From Cytophagaceae bacterium ABcell3 (GTDB lineage Bacteria; Bacteroidota; Bacteroidia; Cytophagales; Cytophagaceae), in assembly GCA_030913385.1 (NCBI GenBank), contig CP133159.1, positions 558,001 to 622,000 on the forward strand: a stretch of DNA of 64,000 nucleotides. Direction: 5' to 3'. The notes under the pieces were generated by a model. The model was not told the DNA's origin and did not search any database. It worked only from the letters and a program-made list of their open reading frames with translations. Position 1 is the first letter of the stretch; the number at the start of each line of letters is the position of its first letter. The position numbers were made by a program, and so were the translations under genes. Shown in pieces: positions 15,146 to 23,059 of the stretch.

Positions 15146-16756
15146 TTAATAAATAACGGAAATGTTTACAAACTCTTCCCCGTTGTTGATGTCTGCTACA
15201 TAATAACCGGGGCTTACTAAGCCAGAGACTCCCATGCCATCCCATGTGCCAGGCACTGTCAAGTCTTTGACTACCACCCCATTTTTATTATAAATTTTGA
15301 CACTTCCTGTCTGCTCGAACCAATAGCTTTCATTTTCTCCGCCACCGTAAGGGGTAAGGATTACTTCTCGACACTTTTCTACTGGAACCTCAAGCCGTTC
15401 CTTGTGTTCTTTGTGACAGCTTTCGGAGTAAACCCGTAAATTGTATGAAGGTTCTGTTAAACCATAAAAGGCGCCTGACTCTGATGTATATTCTTTGCCC
15501 GATGTTAAACTGGTAAGGGTAAATCTCAGGTCATAGCCTTCTACGGAGGAAAGGTCTGTTATTATTTCTCCAGTTTTGTTGCATTTAGGGCCTTTAATAG
15601 AAAACTCCATATTTTCTGCTTGTAAACAAGGCGCTACATAAACCCTAAATGAATCTGTACGAAGTTCTACTTCTTCAAAAGATTCGTGGTAAATTTTGCA
15701 ATAATATACACCATCGTGATTTGCCTCTGTACTATCTATTCTTAATAAATGGTTATCCGTGGTCTCAAACAACCCTTCTTCTGAATACCATTCATAGGTA
15801 GTACCCTCCAAGCCTCTGTCTATGTTGGTTCTTAACACAGTAGGTTGGCCCTCAACGGCCGACACTCTACGGCCTACATTGAAAACCCTTTGTGGATCAA
15901 TATTGAACTTATGAAAATAAGGGTGGTTTTTTACTTTTATTAGCTCTGTAAAACTAAGACGGTTTAAATAGACATCCATACTGTCCAGCTCTGGAAGCAT
16001 AGAAATATCAGGCATCTCAGTTAACTGGTTATTGTCTAAAATTACTTTTCTGACTATTGGCATGCCGCTGAGGTCAGGGCTAGCTTTTATTTCGTTGCTT
16101 CCAGCATTGAGAACCCTTAGACTAGAGAGGTTGCTAAACTTTGGTAGCGCCTCTAGGTCATTTAAGTAGCAGTAAAAGTGTTCCAAGGCAGGTAAGTTGC
16201 TCATATCAGGAATATGGGTCAGCTTATTGTTGCCAATTTCTAAAAAAGTCAATTTTTCGAGGTTGCTAAAGTCTGGAACCCTTTCCAACTTATTCCCATA
16301 TGCTACTATTTCCAGAAGCTCTTTGTTGTTCGATACGTCAGGAATTTCTGTTAGCTCATTGTTATAAATAATTAACTTCTCCAACTCGGGGAAGTGGCTT
16401 AAGTCTGGTAGCTGCTCTAGCTGATTGTCCCTAACATTGATTTCTTTTAGTTCCGTTAAACCGGATATGTTAGGAAGGTGTTTGAGCTTGTTTTCGGTTG
16501 CAAATATTCTGGTAATACGTGTAAAATATTGAATTCCTTCAAGGTTTTCTATACCCTTTTCTGAACAGTTAAAGTATCCAAAGGTGTTTGCTGCGTTTTC
16601 TGGTATTAGATACCCGTTTTCATCTACAGTGGAGGGATACGAAATTTTTAAAAAATTAAGAAAAGCTGTGTCAGGGATAGCTATAGGTTGAGCTATAACT
16701 TTCGCTGCAGATAGAATTAGGAGGGAGGCTAATATGTATAATTTTCTTTTTATCAT
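15146..16756 (-). CDS. Secreted leucine-rich-repeat protein with type-B-like C-terminus
   Basis: A 536-aa exported protein with signal peptide MIKRKLYILASLLILSAAKVIAQP. Residues about 85-275 hold eight or nine leucine-rich repeats of the L-x-x-L-x-I-x-x-N-x-L-x-x-L/I-P-D-x-S form, about 22-23 residues each. An Ig-like segment follows (about 300-375, GVYYCKIYHESFEEVE). The C-terminus (about 470-536: GSVKIYNKNGVVVKDL, TWDGMGVSGLVSPGYYVADI) has the shape of a gliding-motility/type IX type B sorting domain. LRRs suggest binding of a protein or glycan at the cell surface. Its ATG overlaps the stop of the upstream anti-sigma-like gene (ATGA), so it is translationally coupled to the sigma operon. 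Confidence 0.7.
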   Translation of the reverse strand: MIKRKLYILASLLILSAAKVIAQPIAIPDTAFLNFLKISYPSTVDENGYLIPENAANTFGYFNCSEKGIENLEGIQYFTRITRIFATENKLKHLPNISGLTELKEINVRDNQLEQLPDLSHFPELEKLIIYNNELTEIPDVSNNKELLEIVAYGNKLERVPDFSNLEKLTFLEIGNNKLTHIPDMSNLPALEHFYCYLNDLEALPKFSNLSSLRVLNAGSNEIKASPDLSGMPIVRKVILDNNQLTEMPDISMLPELDSMDVYLNRLSFTELIKVKNHPYFHKFNIDPQRVFNVGRRVSAVEGQPTVLRTNIDRGLEGTTYEWYSEEGLFETTDNHLLRIDSTEANHDGVYYCKIYHESFEEVELRTDSFRVYVAPCLQAENMEFSIKGPKCNKTGEIITDLSSVEGYDLRFTLTSLTSGKEYTSESGAFYGLTEPSYNLRVYSESCHKEHKERLEVPVEKCREVILTPYGGGENESYWFEQTGSVKIYNKNGVVVKDLTVPGTWDGMGVSGLVSPGYYVADINNGEEFVNISVIY

Positions 16757-17928
16757 CTCAAAATTGTTACTGAGCCTTTCAGAGTTTTTCCATCGTCGTA
16801 TTTGATTGTAAATATGTAATAGCCTTCTTTTAGATTGCCTCTTTCAGAAGTTCCATCCCAGCTAAGTTGATTATTGGCTGGGATATTTTTCTGGTAAACA
16901 GTTAAGCCTTGATTATTAAAAATTTGTAATACGCCGTATTGATCACGTGTAGGTATTTCCCACTCTTCCCCAAAATAAGGGTTAAATGCGTAATCTTTAG
17001 AGCATAACGTAGCTTTTACTTTTGTATTAAAAGTTTTACTGCAATTTTCACCGTCGCTTATTACTACTTTATAGTTCCCGTTTGGCAAAGAAGAATAGCT
17101 AGCAACTTCCTCGCCAGAGTCATCAAACACTTTAATTTCATAAGGGTCATGGCCTCCTTTTATTTCGGAAACCCTAATTTGACCATTTTCTTCGTTTTCA
17201 CATGCATTTTTTGTGTTTAAGCTTGCTTGTATGTTTGCCGTGTCACATGGTTCTACAAGTTTCTCAACAATTATATTATCCAGCTTGGAAGCGTTTTGCT
17301 CAATGGTGTCATTTTTTTCTTCGTCTTGCACTTCTTTGAGATGCAATGTGTCTACTGCTGCTATTTTTTGTTTTGCTTCCTTTTTTTCTTTTTGTGTTTC
17401 TTTTTTAGGCTCTTGGGTATCTAAAACAGAAGGAGCAGGACGTTGTTTTTTTACCTTTTTAGGTGCTGTTGTTTTTTCTTTCTTGGGAGCAGCTGTTTGG
17501 ATATCAGTATTTTCAGTTTCTTTTACCGGCCCCGCATTTTGGCTGTCGGAATATCCCAACGTCTTTTCTTTCTTGCTTTCTTTTATCTGTGTTTCTTTTT
17601 TTGTTTTATTATTTTCAACAGAAGGTTTTTCTGTAGGGCCAAAGTAAACATAAGCGGAGCCTGTTACAGCCGCTGTTAATAATACGCCAGTAAAAATATT
17701 TTTCCACTGAGATTGGCTGTTTTTCGCTTTTTCTTTGGCTACGAGTTCCTTTACCTTTAAAAGCCGGTTTTCAATAACGAGCTCAGAAGCTAGCTTTTGA
17801 AGCTTTACCTGTTTTTGGAGGGCTTCATTTTCTGCTAGCTGCTTTTCAAAGGCATCTTTTTCTGCTGCGGACATGTTGCCGTTCAGGTAATCTTCAATGC
17901 GTTGATATGTATGGTTACGGCTTTTCAT
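16753..17928 (-). CDS. Anti-sigma-like membrane protein with type IX type-B-like C-terminal domain
   Basis: A 391-aa protein. Residues 1-65 are a charged helical segment (RIEDYLNGNMSAAEKDAFEKQ, LQKLASELVIENRLLKVKEL), the layout of cytoplasmic anti-sigma domains in Bacteroidota. A single membrane helix follows (WKNIFTGVLLTAAVTGSAYVYFG, about 74-97; its flanks fit one pass). Residues 100-225 are a Lys/Glu/Thr-rich, low-complexity periplasmic spacer. Then comes a SprB-like repeat segment (KNACENEENGQIRVSEIKGG, then YEIKVFDDSGEEVASYSSL, about 235-310). The C-terminal end is gliding-associated in type (VLQIFNNQGLTVYQKNI, SWDGTSERGNLKEGYYIFTI). It overlaps the sigma gene and the LRR gene by 4 bases each (ATGA). 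Having a secretion-type domain on an inner-membrane regulator is odd. Confidence 0.65.
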   Translation of the reverse strand: MKSRNHTYQRIEDYLNGNMSAAEKDAFEKQLAENEALQKQVKLQKLASELVIENRLLKVKELVAKEKAKNSQSQWKNIFTGVLLTAAVTGSAYVYFGPTEKPSVENNKTKKETQIKESKKEKTLGYSDSQNAGPVKETENTDIQTAAPKKEKTTAPKKVKKQRPAPSVLDTQEPKKETQKEKKEAKQKIAAVDTLHLKEVQDEEKNDTIEQNASKLDNIIVEKLVEPCDTANIQASLNTKNACENEENGQIRVSEIKGGHDPYEIKVFDDSGEEVASYSSLPNGNYKVVISDGENCSKTFNTKVKATLCSKDYAFNPYFGEEWEIPTRDQYGVLQIFNNQGLTVYQKNIPANNQLSWDGTSERGNLKEGYYIFTIKYDDGKTLKGSVTILR

Positions 17929-18503
17929 AGGCCTTTTAATAAATCCTCAAGATGGGGTTTTTTTTCAATTTCTTTCACCAACTTTTCCTTGCATCTTTTC
18001 TGCTGCATTTTTACTGCTGCTATTGAAGGAAACCCCATTTTTTCCATCACTTCTTTGTAAGGCATTCCATAATAAATAGTATGCGTAAGCAGTTCAATAC
18101 ATTTTTCACCTATTTCCGCAAAAATAGCCTTTATAATATTATCTTCTTCAAGGGCAAATAGTTCTTCTTTAATCTCTATTTGTTCTTCTCCTTTAGAGTC
18201 AGGCAACTGGTCTGTTAATTGAATTTTTTTATCCCTTTTTATTTTGTTTAGCCAAAGATTTATACTTATTCGATAAACATATCCGTATACTTTATATTTG
18301 GGATTATATGTTTTTTTGACCACTTGCTTATAAAATAAAAGCAATGCATCCTGAAAGACATCAAAGGCGTCTTCTTTTCTGCCTGACTTGGAAACTATAT
18401 GCTTTTCCACAGCAGGAAGAACCTTTTTGTATAACAAAGGAATGACTTTTTCGTCAGCTCCTTTTATTATCAATTCAGGAATATTTTCTTCTATTATGCG
18501 CAA
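17925..18503 (-). CDS. ECF-type sigma-70 factor
   Basis: A 192-aa sigma factor. Region 2 spans about residues 22-95 (EDAFDVFQDALLLFYKQ, YGYVYRISINLWLNKIKRDKK). Region 4 covers about 120-175 (IYYGMPYKEVMEKMGFPSIAAVKMQ, then KRCKEKL). It lacks region 1 and 3, as expected for the extracytoplasmic-function class. It is the first gene of a three-gene, ATGA-coupled operon with an anti-sigma-like membrane protein. Divergently, 87 bases away, lies a PorP/SprF-like gene, a probable co-regulated target. Confidence 0.85.
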   Translation of the reverse strand: MRIIEENIPELIIKGADEKVIPLLYKKVLPAVEKHIVSKSGRKEDAFDVFQDALLLFYKQVVKKTYNPKYKVYGYVYRISINLWLNKIKRDKKIQLTDQLPDSKGEEQIEIKEELFALEEDNIIKAIFAEIGEKCIELLTHTIYYGMPYKEVMEKMGFPSIAAVKMQQKRCKEKLVKEIEKKPHLEDLLKGL

Positions 18504-18590
18504 AGTGTTTTAAATACAATTATAGGAAACATGAGGTAACGAAGTTGGGTAAAAAATGGAAATTTCTTAATATTGGCTATAAAATTTCGA

Positions 18591-19457
18591 ATGCGTCTGA
18601 TAATCACATATTGTTTGATAGTGTTTTCACTGAGTCTTCAGGCGCAGGATTCCGATTTGTACCCTGATCTTTTTTCCTCGTTTATTTTTAACCCTTCGTT
18701 AATTAATCCTGGATACGTATCTGATGAAGGTGTGTTGGATTTAATTGGTAATTATAAACAGCGGACTGGCCCCTTTAGCGCTATTGCTACTTATGCTTTT
18801 ACGGCTACGGGCTACCGTCGACAAGATAACGGGGTGGTGCATACCGGAAGGGTGTTTATGTTCAATGAGGCAGAGGGGCCTTATATTTCTAGGCCTCGGG
18901 CATATCTTAACTATGCCAACCGTATGCCTTTGGCGGAAGACTTGTTTCTTTCGGCAGGACTGGCTTTAGGTTTTGCCGGAAATACCTATTCGGCACCAAC
19001 GGTTTCTGGTGTTGGCTCTTCTTTTGTCCCTGATGGGCATGTGGGTATAATGCTTAGCAGTTCAAAGTTTAGTGGCGGTGTATCTGCTATGCAGATTTTT
19101 AATACTGAAGCCTCTCCTTTGGCGGGAGTATTAACTTATAGAAGGTATTTTAATCTGTTTTTCTCTGCTCAGCACGAGTTTACACCAGATTGGGCTGTGA
19201 AGGGGTTTTTGACATACAGTCACTATCGAGAACTGGACCCGGCCTCAGATGTTGGTTTTTTTCTCAATTATAAAGATTTGATTTCTTTTGGTTCTTCTTA
19301 TAGATATTTAAGAGGCTCGGCCATTTTCTTTTCTGTAAATATTCCACAGGCAGAGAACAACATCTTACTATCTTTTGCCTATAACAGTCCCTTGTTTTCT
19401 TCTCGACCACTTTGGCAAAATTCATTGGAGATTACTCTTGGGTACCTGTTTAGATAA
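18591..19457 (+). CDS. PorP/SprF-family type IX secretion membrane protein
   Basis: A 288-aa outer-membrane beta-barrel started at ATG 18591 (MRLIITYCLIVFSLSLQAQ, cleavage after AQA/Q). An upstream TTG would add six residues and is less likely. The family signature is present: SSFIFNPSLINPGYVSDEGV, LIGNYKQRTGPFSAIATY and a LFLSAGLALGFAGN strand; it closes with LEITLGYLFR. PorP/SprF proteins help deliver or anchor type-B-domain cargo secreted by the type IX system. The divergent operon encodes two proteins with type-B-like ends, the expected cargo partners. Confidence 0.85.
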   Translation: MRLIITYCLIVFSLSLQAQDSDLYPDLFSSFIFNPSLINPGYVSDEGVLDLIGNYKQRTGPFSAIATYAFTATGYRRQDNGVVHTGRVFMFNEAEGPYISRPRAYLNYANRMPLAEDLFLSAGLALGFAGNTYSAPTVSGVGSSFVPDGHVGIMLSSSKFSGGVSAMQIFNTEASPLAGVLTYRRYFNLFFSAQHEFTPDWAVKGFLTYSHYRELDPASDVGFFLNYKDLISFGSSYRYLRGSAIFFSVNIPQAENNILLSFAYNSPLFSSRPLWQNSLEITLGYLFR

Positions 19458-20202: not shown

Positions 20203-20370
20203 AAAAAACATGGGTTTTGTTTAAAAACTGACGATCTTCTTTCTTATTCGAAAAAAAGAACAAAAAGGTTCTGTTTTAACCCCTATAAAATGATATTTGT
20301 CGATTTTGTATGGTTATTTTTATATTTTGATCGTTTAGGTTTTTTAATTTCAGTTCAAGAAAAACCACGT

Positions 20371-21072
20371 ATGAAAACAGCCTTTGTTTTTTTCTTAGCC
20401 ATTTTATCTTGTCATATTTCTTCTGCGCAAAGAGAAAAAAAATACCTGGGAGCAGAGGTCCGAACTTTTGAAACCTTTAAGTATGGAAAGTTTGAAGTTC
20501 GTATGAGGTCATGTAAAGGCAGCGGCGTAGTGTCATCCTTTTTTACCTTTTATGATGAACCCGACTTTCCCCAAAATTGGAATGAGATTGATGTAGAGAT
20601 GCTTGGCCGGTATGATCATGAAGTGCAGTTTAATACTATCATCGGCCGCCACAATATGAAAGAGCACAGGCAAACCCTCGACTTTAATCCCCATGAAGAT
20701 TTTCATGTATATGGTTTTGAGTGGTATCCAGACTCTATTGTGTGGTTTGTGGATGGTGTTCGTGTGTATGCCCAAAGTGGCGACCGCATCAAAAAGATGA
20801 ATCAGCCACAGAAAATTATGATGAATGTATGGCCTCCCAATATTTGGGCCTGGAGCGGTGTTTGGGACGAATCAATACTTCCTGTTTGCGCTGCTTATGA
20901 CTATGTTAAATATTCTGCTTATACTCCTGAAAAAGATGAAATATTTACGCATAGGTGGACGGAGCAATTTAAGGATCTTGACTATGGGAAGTGGCAAAAA
21001 GCGACACATACTTTTAAGGAAAACAATGCTGAGTTTATTCCTGACAATGCTGTCATTCAGGATGGTTACTTA
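20371..21072 (+). pseudogene. GH16 glycoside hydrolase, 5' part (interrupted by an IS)
   Basis: The ATG at 20371 starts a signal peptide (MKTAFVFFLAILSCHISSAQ); the frame opens upstream but that part looks non-coding. The GH16 fold is clear: YGKFEVRMRS, the catalytic motif NWNEIDVEML (both nucleophile and acid/base glutamates present, about residues 70-79), FHVYGFEWYPDSIVWFVDG and MNVWPPN. GH16 enzymes cut beta-1,3/1,4-glucans, agar, carrageenan or similar algal or plant polymers. The reading frame is broken at DGYL by the IS at 21073. Removing the IS and one 6-base target copy restores GATGGTTACTTAATGCTTTG, in frame with the 3' part. The catalytic core is complete here, so a shortened enzyme might still fold. 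Confidence 0.85.
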
Positions 21073-21094
21073 GGGTCTGCTGAAAAACTCAAAT

Positions 21095-22645
21095 TTAACA
21101 TATGTAAAAAACCGGCCCTGAGCGCTCGCCAGGCCGGTTTTTTATTGTCATCCTTTCAAATACGTCTTTCAGACCCCGAATTATGTTAAAAATTGACTTA
21201 TGCCATGCTGAAAAACTCAGAAAATAGAGTGCCTGCCTGGTCAATTTGACCAGGTTGAGCACCAGGATTATTGAGGCGATCCACGTTTGGCTGGTATTCT
21301 TAAGTCTGGCACGGATACGGTTCATCCCATAGCTGTTTTTTGCTTGTCCAAACTTTCCTTCAACCGGATTCCTCTCTCCTGGACTTACGTGGTTTTCCAC
21401 TGCCTTTGCGGATGGCCTGCCCAAAGGTTTGGCTGCCAGTTTTATTCCTTTTCCCTTCAACCACTTCCGGTTTTCACGGGTGCAGTAAATTTTGTCTGCC
21501 AGTACTTTGGCAGGATAAAAACCAAACCGTTTCCGATATTTTTCAACGTAATCAACAAGATGACTGCCCTCGTTAAAAGCCTCCCAGGACACAGTGTCCA
21601 GAAAGGAAAAACCATCCACCATGCTAAGGTGGATCTTGGCTCCAAATTCAGTTTTGGCTCGTGACTTTCCCCGTACAATAGGTCGCACATGAGGCTGATG
21701 GATACTAACAATCCGATCTGCTACATGGTGGCCCCGGTTCTTAAACATGCCAAGCTGTTGTTCATAAAGTGTCTGAATGACCCAGTATGACCGCTGTGTA
21801 CGATGACACAAAGGAAAAACCTCAAAGCTGTCCAGCTGCTTTTCAATGGTCTTGAAGTTTCTTCTAAGGTATTGGAGCTGGGCTTTTATCCCTTTGCGAA
21901 TTACTTTTCTTGATGGATTCTTGTTCTGGGCCACCTTCAGATAGGTTTTACGAGCTATTTTTCTGTAAGTCCTTGGTTTCTTCCCCTGGGTATTTTTACA
22001 ATGAAGCTCATCTATGATCTGTTGGGTGATTTCCCTTGCTTTGTTCAGCAGCCCCAAATCGGTTGGGTAAATGATATCTTGAGGACAGGCAGTTGCGTCA
22101 AAGATTGCCTCTCCTTTGTTAGACTCTTGCCCACTGGCAAAGGAAGGAGGGTCATTTTTTCCTTTCGTAGTTTTGTCAACTTTTTTTGGGGCTTTTTCCA
22201 TGTAAAACTCATGGATCCTTTCATTCATCGCATTGATAAGTTCCTGCCCCAACCGTTTTCTGATATCTACAAACAAAGATGGATCAAATGGAGGCTCCTT
22301 GATATAAGAACTGTACCCCAGAAAGTATTGCAGATACATGTTTTCGGTAATCTGGGCAACTGTCTCACGATCATCCAGGTTGAGGATATGCTTGATGATC
22401 ACCACTCCAATCAGCACACGAGGGTTAAGCGCCGGTCTCCCTGTCTTTTTTGGAGGATTGCGTTTGTTGTAGAGATTGACAAGTTCATCCCATGGAATTT
22501 TGTTGCTGAGCAAAACCCACCGGTTGTTGGGGTCAAGCTGATTATGAAACGGTGTCTCGAAACCAATAATTGACAACTGGCTGGGACTTGAATATTCGCA
22601 GCGTGGTGCACGCCTTTTAGGGGTCTTCTGCATATTTCTTTGCAC
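21095..22645 (-). CDS. IS1182/IS5-family transposase (DUF772 + DDE)
   Basis: A 516-aa transposase. The N-terminal DUF772 domain is at about residues 60-140 (GRPALNPRVLIGVVIIKHI, DRETVAQITENMYLQYFLG, PFDPSLFVDIRKRLG). The DDE core includes a first Asp in AIFDATACPQDIIYPTDLGL (about 187), a second in VLADKIYCTRENRKWL (about 387), and a late Glu in HVSPGERNPVEGKFGQAKN (about 430). It carries a variable mid-region rich in Lys/Arg. The frame is intact, so the element may be active. A terminator hairpin lies inside the last codons. Confidence 0.85.
   Translation of the reverse strand: MQRNMQKTPKRRAPRCEYSSPSQLSIIGFETPFHNQLDPNNRWVLLSNKIPWDELVNLYNKRNPPKKTGRPALNPRVLIGVVIIKHILNLDDRETVAQITENMYLQYFLGYSSYIKEPPFDPSLFVDIRKRLGQELINAMNERIHEFYMEKAPKKVDKTTKGKNDPPSFASGQESNKGEAIFDATACPQDIIYPTDLGLLNKAREITQQIIDELHCKNTQGKKPRTYRKIARKTYLKVAQNKNPSRKVIRKGIKAQLQYLRRNFKTIEKQLDSFEVFPLCHRTQRSYWVIQTLYEQQLGMFKNRGHHVADRIVSIHQPHVRPIVRGKSRAKTEFGAKIHLSMVDGFSFLDTVSWEAFNEGSHLVDYVEKYRKRFGFYPAKVLADKIYCTRENRKWLKGKGIKLAAKPLGRPSAKAVENHVSPGERNPVEGKFGQAKNSYGMNRIRARLKNTSQTWIASIILVLNLVKLTRQALYFLSFSAWHKSIFNIIRGLKDVFERMTIKNRPGERSGPVFYIC
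21106..21143. terminator. Terminator inside the 3' end of the IS transposase gene
   Basis: AAAAAACCGGCC and GGCCGGTTTTTT form a perfect 12-bp stem with a 14-base loop. It can act in both directions, and would stop GH16 transcription from entering the IS as well as ending the transposase mRNA. Confidence 0.75.
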
Positions 22646-22726
22646 TTGGACTCCCTCAAATTCATAAAAATAGTTCTAAAATCCTCTTAATGCCGCTATT
22701 TTTTATTTCTAAGCAGACCCTACTTA

Positions 22727-23059
22727 ATGCTTTGCCTGACTAAAAAAGATGAAACTGGATATAGCGGTGGCCCTGTTGTCGATGGAAGCAAGTCCTCAAT
22801 GACTTTAAAAAAAGTCTCTTACCGATTAGATAACCCTCACTATTTGGAGATTATGGTTAGTAACTTTGATAAGCCGGAGTATATTCATGCAGATTATTTC
22901 AAAGTTTCTCGTAACACAGTGGAGCATGCGGAGTTTAAAAATGACAAAATTGTGCTTAAGCTGCAAGAGCCTTTGGTTCCTAAAAAACGTTACAGCGTCG
23001 AATATGACCACATGATGAACGCTAAGGGAAAGCAAAAACGGCGATTTAAATTTAAATAG
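22727..23059 (+). pseudogene. GH16 glycoside hydrolase, 3' part
   Basis: The frame continues the GH16 protein with MLCLTKKDETGYSGGPVVDG, a typical end of the first beta-sandwich module. A C-terminal domain follows with YFKVSRNTVEHAEF and PLVPKKRYSVEYDHMMN. That tail looks like a short Ig-like or carbohydrate-binding end. The TAG stop at 23057-23059 uses the first G of the adjoining family-B repeat, so the natural C-terminus may itself have been changed by that insertion. Confidence 0.7.

Follow-up and report, generated by a model that had tools for sequence, protein, structure and literature searches.

A sigma factor, an anti-sigma-like protein with a cargo-like tail and a PorP/SprF shuttle in one locus of Cytophagaceae bacterium ABcell3

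To our knowledge, it is a largely open question how bacteria with a type IX secretion system (T9SS) sense the export, the loss or the binding of their surface proteins. A locus of four genes in Cytophagaceae bacterium ABcell3 puts this question in a concrete form. It lies in a stretch of 64,000 nucleotides (contig CP133159.1, positions 558,001 to 622,000), which we call the window and in whose coordinates positions are given. The locus encodes a sigma factor of the extracytoplasmic function (ECF) type, an anti-sigma-like protein whose C-terminal end resembles that of T9SS cargo, a leucine-rich repeat (LRR) protein, and a PorP/SprF outer-membrane shuttle. Why should a presumed inner-membrane regulator end like a secreted protein? 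We lean towards the answer that the four genes are one self-regulating trans-envelope sigma/anti-sigma module, which reads its own PorP/SprF-cargo cassette.

Gene order and recurrence of the locus

Three of the genes are on the minus strand, the sigma factor (17925-18503, 192 aa, TTG start), the anti-sigma-like trans-envelope protein (the second protein, 16753-17928, 391 aa) and the LRR protein (15146-16756, 536 aa). Two 4-base overlaps (ATGA) join the LRR gene to the anti-sigma gene and the anti-sigma gene to the sigma gene. The PorP/SprF gene (18573-19457, plus strand, TTG start) is divergent, with about 70 bases between it and the sigma gene. The initial annotation, made from the sequence alone, had described the same arrangement, and its coordinates agree with ours. 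The protein families are also as it had named them, with scores over the cut-offs for all four genes. The sigma factor scores 57.8 bits with TIGR02937 (sigma70-ECF; cut-off 42.9), the LRR protein 57.4 bits with LRR_4 (cut-off 27) and the PorP/SprF protein 102.3 bits with PF11751 (cut-off 22.3), and the CHU_C match of the second protein is described below. With TIGR03519 the PorP/SprF protein reaches 79.1 bits, under the cut-off of 90.55, and the sequence search for a solved relative of it gave none, only a single chance-level row (E 0.28). The host genome, 5.1 Mb in a single contig, encodes the T9SS translocon protein SprA and has 26 PorP_SprF matches.

Searching this genome with the anti-sigma-like protein gave a second match, over residues 6-391 and with 29% identity. 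It belongs to a second complete copy of the module (about G000:C1:530014-534653 in our numbering of genomes and contigs), with a divergent PorP/SprF, a sigma factor, a tailed anti-sigma and a cargo protein. The sigma factor of this copy is a paralogue, 34% identical to that of the window, and the cargo has 623 residues, a CHU_C end and no LRR match. A profile of both copies matches 15 of 19 genomes of the same family at E 1e-10. There are at least 11 separate full-length tailed copies in genome G017, and five tailed copies and a sixth, weaker match to the N-terminal domain in genome G002. We took 40 regions around matches from 14 other genomes of the family, and in this set, with the window and the second copy included, a divergent PorP/SprF is found at 38 of 45 anti-sigmas. 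The remaining ones are at contig or region edges (loci L079, L087, L104) or rearranged (L088, L104, L111, L113). The second copy and the survey of relatives rule out a chance neighbourhood.

The initial annotation had also raised the matter of conservation across the order, and this was looked at. The profile of the N-terminal domain matches 175 of the order's 291 genomes (at most 16 candidates scored per genome), and the domain is also borne with other tails. Tailed forms with PorP/SprF are present in families f5, f16 and f20 besides f1, so that the arrangement recurs in four families. For a pooled survey we fetched 80 regions (40 from the same family, 20 and 14 from the N-domain matches, and 6 phylum-wide) and added the window and the second copy. 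The loci were hand-picked among the matches, not by the presence of PorP, and most of the untailed anti-sigmas come from other families. PorP/SprF is found within 1 kb of the sigma gene at 58 of 62 tailed anti-sigmas, 53 times divergently, as compared to 0 of 12 untailed ones (Fisher 8e-11, ignoring relatedness), and tail type and PorP presence agree in 70 of the 74. Six rows were left out of this count, namely L087 and L183, where the sequence upstream of the sigma gene is shorter than 600 bases and shows no PorP, three that are open-ended and one that is sigma-less. Among loci with at least 2.5 kb on both flanks, a count which left out 17 short-flank loci and the open-ended ones, a protein with a cargo-type C-terminal domain (CTD) and a PorP are both present within 6 kb at 49 of 51 tailed anti-sigmas, and none of 9 untailed anti-sigmas has either. 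The exceptions are L111, with PorP only, and L153, with neither. PorP stays near in the rearranged copies L088, L104, L180, L186 and L188, and sigma precedes the anti-sigma in every complete frame except one at a fetched edge. A phylum-wide search matched 6 of 395 genomes, a lower bound with 5 candidates scored per genome that says little on the range, and its matches outside the own genome are CTD proteins without a nearby sigma.

It had been suggested in the initial annotation that the locus senses type IX secretion or surface cargo and adjusts sigma activity. The link between the sigma factor and the type IX proteins is strongly supported by this conservation, and sensing has the standing of a proposal. 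A different reading would be that the tail is a periplasmic immunoglobulin (Ig)-like sensor of something else, for example envelope stress or a glycan, and that PorP/SprF belongs to the LRR protein only. The Ig-like fold is indeed common, FlgD_ig matching 29 of 43 anti-sigma members, and a related anti-sigma-like protein of the same genome has a trypsin-like part instead. Against this stand the agreement between tail type and PorP presence, and the occurrence of the same kind of two-domain end on the tail and on the neighbouring cargo, and we find such a sensor quite unlikely.

SprF of the gliding track has a twin-Cys tail (PMC12635249). None of 64 PorP proteins from the surveyed loci, the window's own included, has a CxC motif in its last 40 residues, which rules out an SprF-like attachment to the gliding track.

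It was also possible to observe variants of the module. L113:9796-14000 has an anti-sigma of 284 residues with a CHU_C-like end and no SprB-like domain, and its cargo and PorP are downstream on the same strand. Three anti-sigma frames of 245-247 residues (G016:C10:14609, G017:C44:203254 and G015:C4:248739) have the N-domain and an SprB-like part and no CHU_C end, and are possibly decayed or shortened copies. Both in the own genome (L044:4363-6076, G000:C1) and in a different family of the order (L159:7626-9411) there is a related sigma followed by a fusion of an anti-sigma-like part and a trypsin-like peptidase (PF13365, 95 and 84 bits), which is by its predicted domains a protease-tailed version of the same design. 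Related sigma/anti-sigma pairs with other tails are found at L043:4686-6183 in the own genome and, outside it, at L154, L156, L157, L160-L164, L189 and L190, the latter with no PorP/SprF near them; many anti-sigmas of these pairs end FHYQY...YYxL-like. At L171 and L172 (G327, same class) a CTD protein of 404-412 residues is followed by an unusually long PorP/SprF open reading frame (ORF) of 573-600 residues, and there is no sigma.

Anatomy of the anti-sigma-like protein and its LRR partner

An AlphaFold2 model of the anti-sigma-like protein was built with 43 sequences. The protein begins with a predicted cytoplasmic domain of three helices (residues 1-71, 17716-17928, minus strand as for all parts of this gene), modelled confidently to about residue 60 and with a predicted local distance difference test (pLDDT) score above 90 at residues 11-50. 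The single membrane segment (about residues 77-97, 17638-17700) is the only hydrophobic stretch and is uncertain in the model. It is followed by a low-confidence and presumably disordered tether (residues 98-227, 17248-17637), pLDDT being below 50 at about 89-221 except 180-182. The initial annotation had described one membrane helix and a long spacer, and both are there. The C-terminal part, residues 225-391 with pLDDT about 96, consists of an SprB-like four-Cys domain (residues 228-309, 17002-17247) and a CHU_C-like domain (PF13585; residues 310-391, 16756-17001) that has no NGDG-type loop. There is no C-terminal beta-barrel in the model, and two small beta domains stand in its place.

When the N-terminal part was folded alone, its best matches in PDB were RsiW (5wuq, Z 6.2) and RslA (3hug, Z 5.9), both weak. 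Foldseek gave 10 matches up to E 10, and the top six are complexes of RslA or RsiW with their sigmas, the best having a weak E of 1.2. A fold that is unlisted in the structure searches of the N-part and the tail is not thereby excluded. Of the 43 members, 6 match the NF052375 'anti-sigma factor' model at E 0.01, the window member reaching only E 0.22, and a FecR domain is not among the six Pfam matches of the window protein listed up to E 10. It is conceivable that the second protein is an adaptor or assembly factor for PorP/SprF, merely co-transcribed with the sigma gene and not an anti-sigma, and the weakness of the Foldseek and NF052375 values would agree with this. In relatives, though, proteins with wholly different tails have this N-domain and are encoded next to a sigma of the same class, two anti-sigma complexes fill the top of the Foldseek matches, and the conserved order of sigma and second protein also speaks for an anti-sigma, which makes an adaptor very improbable.

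The hydrophobic segment is seen as a 12-residue window from residue 78, the median start in 65 proteins being residue 80, and none of these 65 tailed anti-sigmas, the window's included, has a second one. A hydrophobic N-terminus, as of a signal peptide, is absent from the anti-sigma (12-residue mean at most -0.2, as compared to 2.4 for the LRR protein). The initial annotation had allowed that the hydrophobic segment might itself be a cleaved signal peptide. This is not favoured, the segment following an anti-sigma-like domain of about 75 residues that recurs in relatives. The cytoplasmic parts are nearly free of Cys, 7 of 3075 residues (the first 75 positions of 41 proteins), and exactly four Cys are found in 26 of 41 tails (range 2-6), in the window protein at 228, 243, 296 and 309. 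The rarity of Cys in the N-part, together with a tail of four Cys, fits an N-terminus on the inside and a tail in the oxidising outside, and we infer an inner-membrane protein of this topology. The tether is Cys-free and of steady length, with a median of 103 residues from the membrane segment to the first tail Cys (10-90% 92-114, n=61 of 65).

The LRR protein has a hydrophobic N-terminus, the LRRs, an Ig-like part, an SprB-like four-Cys domain made by Cys 377, 392, 447 and 462 (of its seven), and a CHU_C-like end (15149-15364, minus strand) with a degenerate loop, TPYGGGEN. PF13585 does not match this end, which is recognised by its likeness to relatives and groups in a tree with other LRR-protein ends, 18 in all (98/92). 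By N-terminal comparison 37 of 39 third genes are in one group, a grouping which the repeats may aid. In an alignment of 36 of them (L042, L087 and L113 having been dropped) LRR_4 matches 36, CHU_C 28 and the NCBI type B model 27 at E 0.01, and SprB Pfam repeats are seen in just one. As judged by these comparisons, the third gene is a specific family and not any LRR protein.

The ends of the anti-sigma and the LRR protein have in common a four-Cys domain of like spacing and a CHU_C-like domain. The initial annotation had called the end of the second protein a gliding-type end and a type IX sorting domain, and this is half right. The window protein scores 33.3 bits with CHU_C, over the cut-off of 27, and CHU_C matches 39 of 43 members at E 0.01. 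Its match covers only profile positions 18-86, as compared to a start at position 4 in the second copy's cargo. TIGR04131, the NCBI type B model, gives 26.1 bits, below its cut-off of 35, and matches 22 of 43 members at E 0.01; PF13573 (SprB) matches 24 of 43 relatives, the window member being unmatched. What is missing is the canonical N-terminal loop. The NGDG-type loop (P[ND][GNSD]D[GSA]) is found in 0 of 65 anti-sigma tails as compared to 51 of the 70 remaining CTD proteins in these loci. Among the 39 third genes the loop occurs in 30. The other nine include the LRR protein of the window and also L087, which is apparently no more than the leading fragment (352 aa) of a gene that is split. 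The CTD of SprB from Flavobacterium johnsoniae has five motifs, every one of which SprB requires, be it for secretion or to be recognised by the shuttle (PMC12618676), and the NGDG-type loop may be motif A. The altered loop implies that the tail is more likely a look-alike of the cargo signal than a normal sorting signal, and it may not be exported at all.

Another reading is that the tail still functions as a type IX signal. The anti-sigma would then stay anchored in the inner membrane, with its end threaded through SprA and held on the surface by PorP/SprF, and would span both membranes. The steady tether length and the frequent CHU_C match are in line with this, and PorP-like proteins have been suggested to hold type B proteins on the cell surface (PMC9143113). 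The loss of the canonical loop in all 65 tails, the need of SprB for each of its motifs, and the lack of an N-terminal signal peptide speak against it, and we consider threading unlikely.

In a tree of 97 ends (built on few columns, 93) the window tail belongs to a set (100/98) made up of 37 anti-sigma tails, its own included, and 8 further CTDs, and this set contains no LRR-protein end. A 38th anti-sigma tail, that of L186 with a very long branch, is outside the set and among cargo ends, and the free tree needs 2 changes; a single clade of all 38 tails is not rejected (p-AU 0.61).

Proposed signalling

Type B CTDs associate with their cognate PorP/SprF proteins (PMC9143113, PMC12618676). This pairing, together with an anatomy like that of the Dma anti-sigmas compared below, leads us to propose that the tail docks at the PorP/SprF of its own module. 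Starting from what can be read in the DNA, i.e. the gene order, the anatomy of the anti-sigma, the two-domain end common to both proteins and the promoter-like motif before sigma, we suggest the following for topology, sigma binding, docking, signal and release. The N-terminal domain would hold the sigma factor inactive in the cytoplasm, and the single helix would fix the anti-sigma in the inner membrane. By way of the disordered tether the CHU_C-like end would reach the outer membrane, and there it would dock on, or compete for, the same PorP/SprF by which the LRR protein is exported and anchored. This docking would change when the LRR protein is exported, loaded or bound to a ligand, and the anti-sigma would then release the sigma factor, which would transcribe its own operon and possibly porP too. 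A more specific version, which we hold only tentatively and as doubtful, makes the tail a decoy that is built into the anti-sigma, imitates the export signal of the partner and cannot be exported itself. Sharing PorP/SprF with the real cargo, an inner-membrane protein would by this decoy read the free or loaded state of the shuttle across the periplasm and turn it into sigma activity.

Two further observations bear on this model. In 30 non-redundant complete modules (of 41) the partial rank correlation of distances with PorP, given sigma, is 0.41 for the anti-sigma CTD, 0.38 for the LRR CTD, 0.35 for the LRR N-part, 0.29 for the SprB-like domain and 0.26 for the anti-sigma N-domain. This order would fit the model, the differences being modest. 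Furthermore, a candidate ECF-like promoter, CGTTACC-N-TGTA, a by-eye pattern, is directed towards the sigma gene at 18515-18541 (minus strand). Of 46 non-redundant modules, 27 have TTACY-N14-17-BGTM upstream of the sigma gene, as compared to 2 for the reversed pattern (simulated mean 1.8, maximum 7), and such a motif suggests autoregulation. Some of the promoter-like sites overlap the annotated sigma start, which may lie too far upstream. Another site, at genome position 751105 and 0.8-0.9 kb ahead of a PorP gene, was dropped, as it is inside an ORF.

Several points weigh against the module as we read it. The coevolution signal is unspecific, PorP correlating with the LRR N-part too. The promoter pattern was picked by eye after viewing the sequences, and a stricter form is found in 11 of 46 modules as compared to 3 reversed (simulated mean 1.0, maximum 5). 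In the intergenic regions an unbiased count of dyads gave 8 against shuffle maxima of 6-8 and did not single out the motif. A narrower form is not enriched genome-wide, with 28 sites as compared to 99 for the reversed control, and being rarer than its control it allows no regulon to be read. The tail has a widespread Ig-like fold, and in the comparison of the CTD fold MalQ (Z 9.3) is level with PorU (8.8) and PorZ (8.7), with the NucA CTD at 7.8, so on the predicted model the fold alone proves little on the identity of the tail. A PorP/SprF beside type B cargo is already usual, and PorP may serve the LRR protein alone. PorP without a nearby CTD protein occurs in only 1 of the 51 well-flanked tailed loci (L111), too few to tell service to the LRR protein alone from docking of the tail. 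Finally, type B ends are placed mainly on the cell surface (PMC9143113, PMC12618676), and a non-exportable tail would meet PorP/SprF only from the periplasm.

If the trans-envelope reading is true, transcription would be wired directly to the type IX export apparatus or to the cell surface. If the tail is also a decoy, every surface protein with such a module would have a private channel of its own, and the modules together would be a whole class of one-protein surface sensors in T9SS bacteria.

Elsewhere in the window, at 20290-23059, a DDE transposase gene (21095-22645, minus strand) is flanked by a GH16 glycosidase ORF on one side and by a short ORF with no Pfam match on the other; the insertion may have cut the end of the glycosidase gene.

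Comparison with known systems

In FecI-FecR-FecA a sigma factor, an inner-membrane anti-sigma and an outer-membrane barrel are encoded together. Our locus is alike in having these three parts in one place, and differs in that the barrel there is a TonB-dependent receptor and here a PorP/SprF, and in that the second protein gives no FecR domain match. In Cytophaga hutchinsonii an ECF sigma factor reportedly controls cellulose use and an outer-membrane protein (Wang 2019, known to us by title only).

PorA-PorXY-SigP of Porphyromonas gingivalis (PMC7712824) is also alike, as a surface CTD protein, whose CTD interacts with PorV, feeds an ECF sigma factor. This published route from surface to sigma is indirect, through a two-component link and a separate CTD protein, whereas our anti-sigma has the CTD-like end within its own chain. 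The type B CTD-PorP/SprF pairs of F. johnsoniae are similar in that the CTD protein is encoded beside its shuttle. A sigma/anti-sigma pair is not described with them in the accessible part of that work, and our locus differs in having an anti-sigma tail without the canonical loop. No description of an anti-sigma with a T9SS-like end was found in the open-licence literature, which leaves subscription papers mostly outside.

The Dma anti-sigmas of Bacteroides (PMC13088901) are alike in that an anti-sigma part at the N-terminus is followed by a single membrane helix, a long disordered tether and a C-terminal beta part aimed at the outer membrane, and in a gene beside that of their sigma. They differ in having their own C-terminal beta-barrel, whereas here the end is cargo-like (CHU_C), the barrel is a separate divergent PorP/SprF and an LRR cargo is in the operon. 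Our module, if it acts as proposed, would be a second design, beside Dma, of an envelope-crossing anti-sigma. It most likely works like Dma or FecR and is a member of neither; trans-envelope sigma/anti-sigma signalling is the known part of it, and the coupling to the T9SS is what would be new.

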